Source: a virus. From it: a stretch of DNA of 57,259 nt. The DNA is taken from IMG/VR virus record IMGVR_UViG_3300030104_002855, positions 4,914 through 62,172 of that record, one strand, 5' to 3'. Shown here one piece after another: positions 49,538 through 53,946 of the stretch (positions within the stretch are counted from its first letter, which is position 1; every line of letters starts with the position of its first letter). The position numbers and the translations under genes are program-made. The notes beneath the pieces were generated by a model that made no database searches, was not told where the DNA came from, and saw only the letters and a program-made list of their open reading frames with translations.

Positions 49538-49749
49538 CACAGTATAAAGATATGGTCAAAAAGCGTAACGAAGAGTTAGTAGAGGAACGTGATATGAGTT
49601 CCGTTACAGGTATAACTCGTGTAATTAATAAAGCGAAAAACATTGATTACACTACAATTTACTATAAGAATGGTAAACAAGTGCGTTCTTATAAGGATAA
49701 ACGAAAAAAAGATGAGGTTATACAGGAGGCTTTTTCAAATTTTTGTTGA
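49534..49749 (+). CDS. Small basic protein (71 aa)
   Basis: The sequence MTQYKDMVKKRNEELVEERD, then ITRVINKAKNIDYTTIYYKN and a Lys-rich end, suggests a small helical/beta protein. The consensus promoter for the next operon starts inside its last codons. No family is recognised. Confidence 0.45.
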   Translation: MTQYKDMVKKRNEELVEERDMSSVTGITRVINKAKNIDYTTIYYKNGKQVRSYKDKRKKDEVIQEAFSNFC

Positions 49750-49773
49750 CGTATCCTTTACCTCCTTTATAAT
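49746..49773 (+). promoter_or_regulatory. Near-consensus sigma-70 promoter for the MazG leader
   Basis: TTGACG at 49746-49751 and a perfect TATAAT at 49768-49773 are 16 bases apart. It is the closest match to the bacterial consensus in the window and lacks the ATC spacer motif of the type-P set. Transcription would begin near 49780 and run through a 160-base structured leader. Confidence 0.85.
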
Positions 49774-49805: not shown

Positions 49806-49915
49806 AAGAGTTTTGTTACTCACTTAAATCAACAAAGACTCTTCTAATTGAGCAAGGGTGTTGTATTATTGTCCCTTCATAGCAAGTTTGGCTCACTTGT
49901 GCTCAGAAACGAGCC
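49806..49915 (+). ncRNA. Structured 5' leader with pseudoknot, copy 1
   Basis: First comes a long hairpin (49806-49817 with 49831-49843, 12 pairs and a bulged G). The 66-base element at 49850-49915 follows: P1 GAGCA/TGCTC (49850/49900), P2 AAGGG/CCCTT (49854/49873), P3 CAAGT/ACTTG (49883/49895). The P3 loop GGCTC (49890-49894) can pair with GAGCC (49911-49915), forming a pseudoknot. The MazG-like gene starts 29 bases later. The same architecture recurs at 52332-52397 with compensatory changes. It may be a riboswitch or protein-binding leader. Confidence 0.65.
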
Positions 49916-49943
49916 TTATATTTAAACAACATAGGAGTATATA

Positions 49944-50273
49944 ATGGCTAGAGATTTAAATTCACTAGAAGAATTAATAGTAATATGGGCTAGGCAACGT
50001 GGACTTTTGACCGCTGACGTTCAGCCTCAAAAACAAATGCTAAAACTAGTTGAGGAAGTAGGTGAACTTGCTAAGGGTGTTGCGTACCGAGACAAGTGGT
50101 CTACCTCTGACGGTATAGGTGATGTATTTGTTTGCTTAGTGGTATTAGCTGAGCAGTTAGATTTAAAAGTAACAGAGTGTATTGACCAAGCGTACGATGA
50201 AATCAAAAACCGTGAGGGAGTACTAGAAGATGGGCTGTTTAAAAAGAATAATGATGTACCTGAACTACCTTAA
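49944..50273 (+). CDS. mazG: MazG-like NTP pyrophosphohydrolase
   Basis: The metal-binding EExxE/ExxD pattern is visible in KLVEEVGELAKGV and DGIGDVFVCLVVLAEQL, followed by ECIDQAYDEIKNREG. At 109 residues it is a single-domain, dimeric-type MazG as carried by many marine phages, where it may hydrolyse dNTPs or (p)ppGpp-like nucleotides. Its own consensus promoter and long structured leader suggest separate control. Confidence 0.82.
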   Translation: MARDLNSLEELIVIWARQRGLLTADVQPQKQMLKLVEEVGELAKGVAYRDKWSTSDGIGDVFVCLVVLAEQLDLKVTECIDQAYDEIKNREGVLEDGLFKKNNDVPELP

Positions 50274-52293: not shown

Positions 52294-52397
52294 CTAGTCT
52301 CTCTGTCCTCCATACTAACGAGGCTAGTTTAGAGCAAGAGGTTTATTTAGTACCTCTATATTAGCAAGCGTGGTTCACTTGTGCTCGCAAACGAACC
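52294..52397 (+). ncRNA. Structured leader with pseudoknot, copy 2
   Basis: A hairpin CTAGTCTC/GAGGCTAG (52294-52301 with 52320-52327) precedes the 66-base element at 52332-52397: P1 GAGCA/TGCTC (52332/52382), P2 AGAGGT/ACCTCT (52337/52352), P3 CAAG/CTTG (52365/52378), and P3 loop GGTTC (52372-52376) pairing with GAACC (52393-52397). Distances between P1, the pseudoknot loop and its partner equal those of copy 1. The next ATG is 21 bases away. Confidence 0.65.
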
Positions 52398-52418
52398 ACT
52401 TAAATTTTAGGAGAAATT

Positions 52419-52925
52419 ATGAATAATTTTAAAACATATGTTAACTACGCTCAGCCTGTGGTTGAAGCTATAAATAAACACCACAATGAATTTTACTTAC
52501 TTCAATATTGTGGTATACGTCCTCAAGACTTATGTGTTGATGAAGAAAATTTAATAAAGTTTGAGGCTAGTGGCGAACCTGGAGCTTTTAAAGGTGATAT
52601 ACCTTTAATATATGCCCAGTATGGCGAGGAAACTGGTGCCAGCCTAGCTATTGAACTTACTGCTGAACACCGTAAGTTACTGAGTAAAGAATTAGCCTTT
52701 GAACTTTTTGGTGAGCACTTTGATTTATGGGAAGACGGAGTTGTGTATGCGTTACTTGACCATGAATATTATCAAACCTGTAGTGGTTTTGCGGTTCATG
52801 AAATAGTTGACCCCACTAGTGGCGGTGTAGGTAATGCTCTTGACTTTATTTCAGAAAGACTAGGGCTACCTTTCTTCAACCTTCATGAAGGTAAAAGCAA
52901 TTTAGACTTTATTTTAGACCAATAA
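52419..52925 (+). CDS. Unknown protein under the pseudoknot leader (168 aa)
   Basis: The ATG follows AGGAGAAATT. The protein has NYAQPVVEAINKHHNEFYLL, GEETGASLAIELTAEHRKLL and ELFGEHFDLWEDGVVYALLD, and looks like a compact helical fold without a recognised active site. Its expression is probably controlled by the upstream RNA, the same kind that precedes MazG. Confidence 0.55.
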   Translation: MNNFKTYVNYAQPVVEAINKHHNEFYLLQYCGIRPQDLCVDEENLIKFEASGEPGAFKGDIPLIYAQYGEETGASLAIELTAEHRKLLSKELAFELFGEHFDLWEDGVVYALLDHEYYQTCSGFAVHEIVDPTSGGVGNALDFISERLGLPFFNLHEGKSNLDFILDQ

Positions 52926-52939
52926 CATAGGAGAAAAAA

Positions 52940-53113
52940 ATGTATAATGAAGAAGAAAAATATAAATGTATCTATATCGCAGCAGATACACATAAACAAT
53001 TAAAAGAGTTTTGTGATGAGCATGGGCTAACTCTGTCAGGCATCTCTACAAAAGCAGTTGCAAAATATATGGGAGAATTAATAACACTATTTGAAATGAT
53101 GGATAAGAAATGA
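52940..53113 (+). CDS. Ribbon-helix-helix-like regulator (57 aa)
   Basis: This ORF has an SD (TAGGAGAAAA) and the sequence KCIYIAADTHKQLKEFCDEH, then LTLSGISTKAVAKYM, the strand-helix-helix pattern of CopG/Arc-type repressors. Its stop overlaps the dehydrogenase start. It may bind the repeated operator or promoter elements nearby. Confidence 0.6.
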   Translation: MYNEEEKYKCIYIAADTHKQLKEFCDEHGLTLSGISTKAVAKYMGELITLFEMMDKK

Positions 53114-53946
53114 GTTATAACATCGGCATATTAGGTTTTGGCTTTGTGGGGCAGGCAGTGGGAAATGCTTTTCGCCCTTATAATAATAGAGTTTGGACCG
53201 TGGACCCCATACTAGGCAACGACATTAGCCTACTCTACGATAAAAACCGTGCATCTGATGCGTTTATTGATTTCGTATTCGTATGTGTGCCCACTCCTTC
53301 GCTTAACTCTGGTGAAATAGACGCACGTATCGTACAAAAATGTACAGACGATATACTGCGTAATACTTCTGCCACAGTTATTATTAAGTCAACCGTGACT
53401 CCTGGTCTAATACCTACTAGTTCTAGAGTGGTTTATAACCCTGAGTTCTTAACGGAAGCTAACGCTGAGGAAGATTTTATTAACGCTGAATATCATATAC
53501 TGGGCGGAGACCCTGCAGCCTGTGGCGACGTAATGGAGCTCTACCGTGTGCAGTCAAACTTACTACACAAAGACTTTATTGTTATGACTAAGCAAGAAGC
53601 GAGCCTAGTTAAATACGCAACGAATGCTTTTCTAGCGACCAAAGTTACCTTCTTTAATCAACTATATGACTTAGCTAATCGCTGTGGTGCCGACTATCAA
53701 ATGATAGTAGATACCGTAACTAGCGATAAGCGTATAGGTGAGGGTCATACTAAGGTAGGTGACGGTGGGCGTAAAAGAGGGTACGGTGGTGCGTGTCTTC
53801 CTAAGGACGTGAATGCCTTGTATCATTTTAGTAAGAAAAAGTTCAGTTTACTAAGGCTCGTGGACCGTATCAATAATAAGTACCGACGCTTATACGCTCG
53901 TGACGAAAGAGAGCGTGGCAATAATATTAATTATTACCTGAACTAG
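53110..53946 (+). CDS. UDP-glucose/GDP-mannose dehydrogenase-family protein, C-terminally short
   Basis: The Rossmann motif G9-x-G11-x-x-G14 (ILGFGFVGQAVG), VFVCVPTPS, KSTVTPG, NPEFLTEANAEEDF, KYATNAFLATKV and catalytic C229 in YGGACLPKD are all present, so the NAD domain and active site are intact. At 278 residues it lacks the C-terminal UDP-sugar-binding domain of usual 390-450-residue enzymes, which makes the substrate uncertain. It could supply an oxidised sugar for DNA or surface glycosylation. Confidence 0.8.
   Translation: MSYNIGILGFGFVGQAVGNAFRPYNNRVWTVDPILGNDISLLYDKNRASDAFIDFVFVCVPTPSLNSGEIDARIVQKCTDDILRNTSATVIIKSTVTPGLIPTSSRVVYNPEFLTEANAEEDFINAEYHILGGDPAACGDVMELYRVQSNLLHKDFIVMTKQEASLVKYATNAFLATKVTFFNQLYDLANRCGADYQMIVDTVTSDKRIGEGHTKVGDGGRKRGYGGACLPKDVNALYHFSKKKFSLLRLVDRINNKYRRLYARDERERGNNINYYLN

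Follow-up and report, generated by a model that had tools for sequence, protein, structure and literature searches.

The 57,259-nucleotide stretch of viral DNA analysed here, called the window below, contains a short sequence at 52332-52397 that the initial annotation read as a pseudoknot element and as the second copy of one fold in the same genome. The question raised by this locus is whether the fold is a genuine RNA structure and, if it is, what such an element does in a phage. On the first point there is hardly any room for doubt: the element spans 52332-52399 and is, almost certainly, a real folded RNA of about 66 bases that belongs to an RNA family. The pseudoknot element is confirmed and its bases are present as named, but its end had been placed two bases short, as the pseudoknot has 7 bp and reaches 52399. 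The nearest matches to the DNA polymerase of the phage, at 49-55% identity, belong to 023Pt_psg01, DSL-LC04, and the pelagiphages HTVC023P and HTVC027P, so the phage is probably a relative of these four that has not been cultured.

The decisive evidence that the RNA family is real comes from relatives. The covariance model R1 was built from 17 of them, with the window sequences and their close kin left out, and this compact model of about 62 nt matches the window in only two places, 49850-49916 (E 2.5e-11) and 52332-52398 (E 1.2e-9). These are exactly the two sites at issue, 49850-49915 and 52332-52399, and the proposal of two copies of one fold in a single genome stands. Across the relatives P1, P3, and the pseudoknot covary and P2 keeps its pairing, which bears out the claim that a pseudoknotted RNA structure is under selection. 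The two copies alone had been offered as good evidence of covariation, and here the case is thin. The pseudoknot does change in a compensatory manner from GGCTC/GAGCC to GGTTC/GAACC, as described, but only one pair differs, and while P2 is paired in both copies, its two versions do not line up base for base. An 11-mer common to both copies with at most one mismatch is found in 2 matches, against a mean of 0.66 in shuffles, 13 of 100 of which reach 2.

Exact-pattern scans of IMG/VR returned near-identical phages first (L001, L007, L008, L010, L011, and L012) and then diverged elements (L005, L032, L034, L035, L040, and many more). Under a strict structural filter, the IMG/VR pattern scans give 127 elements in 116 contigs, with 77 distinct sequences, and the family is carried by over 100 virus fragments, most of them uncultured. 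Apart from the dispersed pair of the window, tandem copies are present in at least eight contigs, with two copies in L032, L035, L054, L082, L084, L117, and L343 and three in L040. A final scan for elements of the TGCTC type produced known relatives and chance matches only.

Searches of Rfam 15 at gathering thresholds give no match in the window or in 11 related loci, and at E up to 10 there is no meaningful weak match around three representative elements. In 50,697 phage records (INPHARED), BLASTN with consensus elements as short queries yields brief chance matches only, and nothing convincing is seen in the whole records of HTVC202P, HTVC026P, HTVC112P, HTVC023P, HTVC027P, DSL-LC04, DSL-LC06, and 023Pt_psg01. 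A pattern scan of bacterial genomes produced 12 stretches; among those listed by a pairing screen L139 scored through many G-U pairs only, and none was accepted as real. The model R2 found no element in 385 bacterial genomes of one class, with only 14 candidates scored per genome, nor did a strict pattern in 399 genomes of the phylum of that class. Searches of an open-access library turned up no phage or bacterial exoribonuclease-resistant RNA (xrRNA) and no described phage motif of this type. The family is thus absent from Rfam 15, although it is structured, covaries strongly, and occurs in environmental phages that are unrelated to one another.

P1, P2, and P3 meet in a three-way junction, and the loop of P3 is paired to bases immediately 3' of P1. 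Across the family P1 has 5-6 bp (5 in the window), P2 is a hairpin of 3-8 bp with a free loop, P3 has 4 bp, and the pseudoknot 4-7 bp. J12 is about 0 nt, J31 is 0 nt, and J23 comprises 4-7 nt ending in G. The P3 loop is made up of two free bases, a U (57/60), and the pseudoknot strand, which ends in C; an A follows, and then the 3' strands of P3 and P1, between which the two window copies, like each of the 60 elements, have 0 nt, a spacing that the descriptor assumed. The linker of 5-7 nt reads NN(A)AAC, sometimes with GAC at its end, and leads to a pseudoknot strand beginning with G and then to an A/U-rich stretch. Conserved unpaired bases are few, namely the G, the U, the A, and AAC, and all of these but the U were in part prescribed by the patterns used for searching; L054 has, in its second copy, a C in place of the conserved A between pseudoknot and P3. 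The sequences of P1, P3, and the pseudoknot differ widely among members, and P3 alone occurs as CCAG/CTGG, CAGG/CCTG, CTGG/CCAG, CGAG/CTCG, and CCGG/CCGG in relatives. The features of the window are collected in the table. Copy 1 forms P1 from GAGCA/TGCTC, P2 from AGGG/CCCT, and P3 from CAAG/CTTG, its linker is AGAAAC, and its pseudoknot joins GGCTC (49890-49894) to GAGCC (49911-49915).

Table. Positions of the two element copies, their parts, and neighbouring features in the window.
Feature	Position	Strand	Evidence or remark
Sigma-70-type promoter match (TTGACG, 16 nt, TATAAT; 11/12)	49746..49773	+	Consensus scan only
Copy 1 of element, MazG leader	49850..49915	+	R1 match, E 2.5e-11
MazG-like pyrophosphatase ORF	49944..50273	+	phrog_1992, E 4.2e-31
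Copy 2 of element	52332..52399	+	R1 match 52332-52398, E 1.2e-9
P1 5' strand GAGCA	52332..52336	+	Pairs with 52382-52386; P1 covaries in family
P2 5' strand AGAGGT	52337..52342	+	Pairs with ACCTCT 52352-52357
P2 3' strand ACCTCT	52352..52357	+	Pairs with AGAGGT 52337-52342
Unpaired conserved G preceding P3	52364	+	60/60 elements; search patterns fixed G, so conservation partly selected
P3 5' strand CAAG	52365..52368	+	Pairs with CTTG 52378-52381; alternative pairings in relatives
Pseudoknot 5' strand GTGGTTC, inside P3 loop	52370..52376	+	Pairs with 52393-52399; covaries
Unpaired conserved A, between pseudoknot strand and P3	52377	+	60/60; fixed in most search patterns
P3 3' strand CTTG	52378..52381	+	Pairs with CAAG 52365-52368
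P1 3' strand TGCTC, directly adjoining P3	52382..52386	+	Pairs with 52332-52336
Linker GCAAAC, 6 nt (consensus NN(A)AAC)	52387..52392	+	Linker table of elements; GAC-ending variants in relatives
Pseudoknot 3' strand GAACCAC	52393..52399	+	Pairs with 52370-52376
Shine-Dalgarno AGGAG of downstream ORF, outside fold	52409..52413	+	Sequence
Downstream ORF, 168 aa	52419..52925	+	No Pfam or PHROG match

This anatomy alters part of the earlier description. One helix, P3 (CAAG of AGCAAG with CTTG of CACTTG), had been overlooked; together with P1, P2, and the pseudoknot it makes four helices, all of which have support. The supposed unpaired core of AGCAAG and CACTTGTGCTC is not one, as CAAG pairs with CTTG in P3 and TGCTC is a strand of P1; its only unpaired bases are the G that precedes P3 and the A that follows the pseudoknot strand. 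A switch in which GAGCAAG and TAGCAAG of the window compete for CTTGTGCTC was considered and rejected, since relatives whose P1 has another sequence lack this repeat.

Many elements were chosen by pairing criteria, and weight is put on tests with less bias of this kind. Pattern A prescribed a few single bases and, of P1, only the 3' strand; the other P1 strand, two pairs of P3, and the greater part of the pseudoknot were open to vary. P1, P3, and the pseudoknot are all paired in 29 of its 31 distinct contexts. Homologues in which one arm alone had changed were to have spoken against the fold; in this sequence-only scan P3 is paired in every one of the 31 contexts and the pseudoknot in 30. Pattern B required P1 but placed no constraint on the pseudoknot or on two pairs of P3, and returned 46 contexts with both P3 and pseudoknot, 24 with neither, one with P3 alone, and six with nothing but a run counted as pseudoknot. 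P2 was never a selection criterion, and yet 50 of 51 distinct segments have a P2 stem of 4 bp or more (shuffles: mean 18.4, never above 28), with a hairpin of at least 3 bp in all 60 elements. When columns were shuffled, the observed pairing of P1, P3, and the pseudoknot was reached in 0 of 500 trials each, and slid versions score far lower, for rows that had been pre-selected for pairing. Pairs were counted by a script with fixed anchors, as the MAFFT alignment misplaced the linker gap. G-U pairs are found on the sense strand and A-C pairs are almost absent, which fixes the RNA strand. Single-sequence folding, in which no pseudoknots are possible, does not recover the fold (z -2.4 for copy 2, -0.4 for copy 1); simple folding neither finds nor excludes it. 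Two copies by themselves would be weak evidence, and one might ask whether two leaders are alike by chance. The R1 E-values, the 77 distinct relatives, and the retention of P3, pseudoknot, and P1 in pattern A refute this reading and leave it with next to no probability.

The contigs were sorted into 22 lineages by inspection, with no tree, and the element is intergenic in unrelated phages. Its start lies from -2 to 19 nt past the upstream stop codon in 14 of the 22 lineages, and a start codon follows 8-34 nt after the element in 11. Just upstream of the element, lineage C (L032, L067) has a terminator and, by eye, a promoter-like sequence, and so transcription would begin at or near P1; the promoter match in the window ends 76 nt 5' of copy 1. 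In other lineages the element comes after the last gene and is followed by a promoter-like sequence (F, K, R, and U, by eye), by a terminator (O, by script; D, S, and L330, by eye), or by convergent genes (E and I). Downstream of copy 1 the gene with a PHROG match is MazG, and the second copy in L008 is followed by UDP-glucose dehydrogenase, the window homologue of which has Pfam and PHROG matches. Genes read from translations include serine recombinases, an integrase, a helicase, and VRR-NUC-like, DUF3310-like, ParB-like, and terminase-small-subunit-like proteins. No nitrogen-metabolism genes were recognised downstream of elements, where many ORFs are without annotation.

Several neighbouring features are recorded here in their own right. 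The window ORF at 52419-52925 is missing from the near-identical L008, whose second element lies immediately before the UDP-glucose dehydrogenase ORF. The window homologue (53110-53946) matches Pfam from profile position 76 of the NAD-binding domain, the start of which looks reduced. A few kb before the elements, 46966-47673 matches a PHROG of the host-takeover category, a 2OG-Fe(II) oxygenase. Noncoding stretches of a few hundred nt with extra apparent stems follow the tandem elements of L040 (7200-7560) and L035 (minus strand); they are alike, lie ahead of convergent genes, and are possibly another structured RNA. In L299 a promoter-like match (TGGTCA, 16 nt, TATAAT; 2814-2841) overlaps the 3' part of an element that faces a convergent gene. 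In L047, L087, L283, L284, and L302 a promoter-like sequence about 60-100 nt past the element precedes a short GC stem (GCCTC..GAGGC), where the next transcript probably has its 5' end.

It is conceivable that the element is a riboswitch, that is, a metabolite aptamer in phage mRNA leaders, and about half of the lineages do place it just 5' of a start codon. Its topology is also that of the glutamine riboswitch, whose solved structure is a three-way junction with a pseudoknot between the P3 loop and the 3' tail. The glutamine riboswitch RNAs (glnA, RF01739, and Downstream-peptide, RF01704) resemble the phage family further in marine and phage occurrence and in tandem copies (PMC2864571, PMC9964418), the latter reported for glnA RNAs (PMC2864571). 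However, not even a weak Rfam match to glnA or Downstream-peptide is present at E 10 around the three elements, no consistent nitrogen genes accompany the phage element, and it has a linker before its pseudoknot strand and a smaller conserved core. The manA and wcaG motifs of cyanophages are likewise orphan structured leaders of marine phages (PMC2864571), but the phage element is without an Rfam match and its gene contexts are unrelated. For a riboswitch of any kind, it is troublesome that the downstream genes have nothing in common and that some copies have no close downstream gene, stand before terminators, or face convergent genes. Conserved unpaired bases are few, the window Shine-Dalgarno sequences lie 9-17 nt outside the fold with no complement noticed in the element, and no overlap of the fold with a Shine-Dalgarno sequence or terminator was noticed in the flanks that were inspected. 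We consider a riboswitch unlikely. The idea that the gene at 52419 shares a ligand or regulator with MazG fares no better: a shared ligand is unlikely given the unrelated neighbour genes, such as the dehydrogenase of L008, and the copies in 3' UTRs or before terminators, and a ligand tied to one metabolic function common to the copies is unlikely too. A protein or nuclease common to the copies is possible.

Such a protein, of phage or host, could be a translational repressor, an antitermination factor, or a processing endonuclease that binds several operons at once. One regulator in common would account for the diverse gene contexts, and several copies per genome before unrelated genes, tandem copies, and the small conserved core agree with this. 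Yet no small protein family is common to most element-bearing contigs, which are fragments and whose clusters are ordinary phage genes, and as the helices vary widely in sequence, a protein would have to recognise the shape and some six bases; we regard a protein-binding site as somewhat improbable. A self-cleaving ribozyme that separates cistrons would suit the size (50-80 nt), the junction with a pseudoknot, and the intercistronic position. There is, however, no Rfam ribozyme match in the window and 11 related loci, the hammerhead CTGANGA core is absent from both window copies, and the scarcity of conserved unpaired bases is again unfavourable. We also know of no small ribozyme with the topology of this element, which counts against the idea. 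The strongest association of bacterial self-cleaving ribozymes is reported to be with genes of Mu-like phages (PMC10085705), which counts for it; overall, a ribozyme is very unlikely.

The best explanation, which we put forward tentatively and short of calling it probable, is that the family consists of cis-acting RNA elements of about 60-70 nt in tailed phages, locked by their pseudoknots and positioned between cistrons, which would govern phage mRNA decay or processing. From the secondary structure, covariation, strand, and intergenic position that are observed, we infer a three-dimensional arrangement and the lock as its function. P1 and P2, which are separated by hardly any nucleotides, would stack, and P3 would bend back beside P1, given a J31 of 0 nt and a J23 of 4-7 nt. 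This type of junction, with P3 alongside P1, is family C of Lescoute and Westhof. Pairing of the P3 loop with bases starting 5-7 nt 3' of P1 would lock P3 to P1 in a closed ring-like fold. The locked element may then act as a compact mechanical barrier at an mRNA end or between cistrons, limiting exonucleolytic decay or setting a site of transcript processing, and neighbouring phage genes would be held at different levels. Such a barrier would suit an element between cistrons whatever the gene function, and the scarcity of conserved unpaired bases is easier to reconcile with a mechanical element than with a pocket for a ligand.

Flaviviral class 1 xrRNAs have short P1 and P3 helices of near-fixed length and a variable P2, a pattern explained by ring formation (PMC7527734), and the same pattern in the phage element may, by analogy, support a barrier. 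At the level of secondary structure the two also have in common the helix order P1-P2-P3 and the pairing of the P3 loop 3' of P1 (Pk2), tandem copies occur in both, and the phage pseudoknot of 4-7 bp compares with the 2-7 bp given for xrRNAs (PMC8571300). The phage element is nevertheless not a member of class 1, as its P3 abuts P1 with 0 nt and leaves no room for Pk1 (PMC7527734), the pseudoknot of the 5' strand with bases that separate P3 from P1; it differs further in the 5-7 nt linker before the pseudoknot strand, in its occurrence in DNA phages, and in having no sequence match. Placement close to stop codons, unrelated neighbours, and tandem copies like those of the flaviviral exonuclease-resistant RNAs all count for the tentative barrier reading. 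Against it, copies in 3' UTRs fit a 3'-5' barrier and those in 5' leaders a 5'-3' one, whereas flaviviral elements block 5'-3' enzymes. A 5'-3' block would also require that the hosts carry a 5'-3' exonuclease such as RNase J. The glutamine riboswitch also counts against a barrier, having the same topology with another function.

A more specific form of the locked barrier, and a doubtful one, is an exonuclease-blocking ring RNA of bacteriophages, with an xrRNA-like fold that arose independently of the flaviviral one, that would stabilise or segment mRNA against bacterial nucleases. To our knowledge, it would be the first of its kind. The family most likely represents a new piece of phage gene control, and if nuclease blocking should prove true, a mechanical trick for RNA survival would be common to phages and to the RNA viruses of animals and plants.
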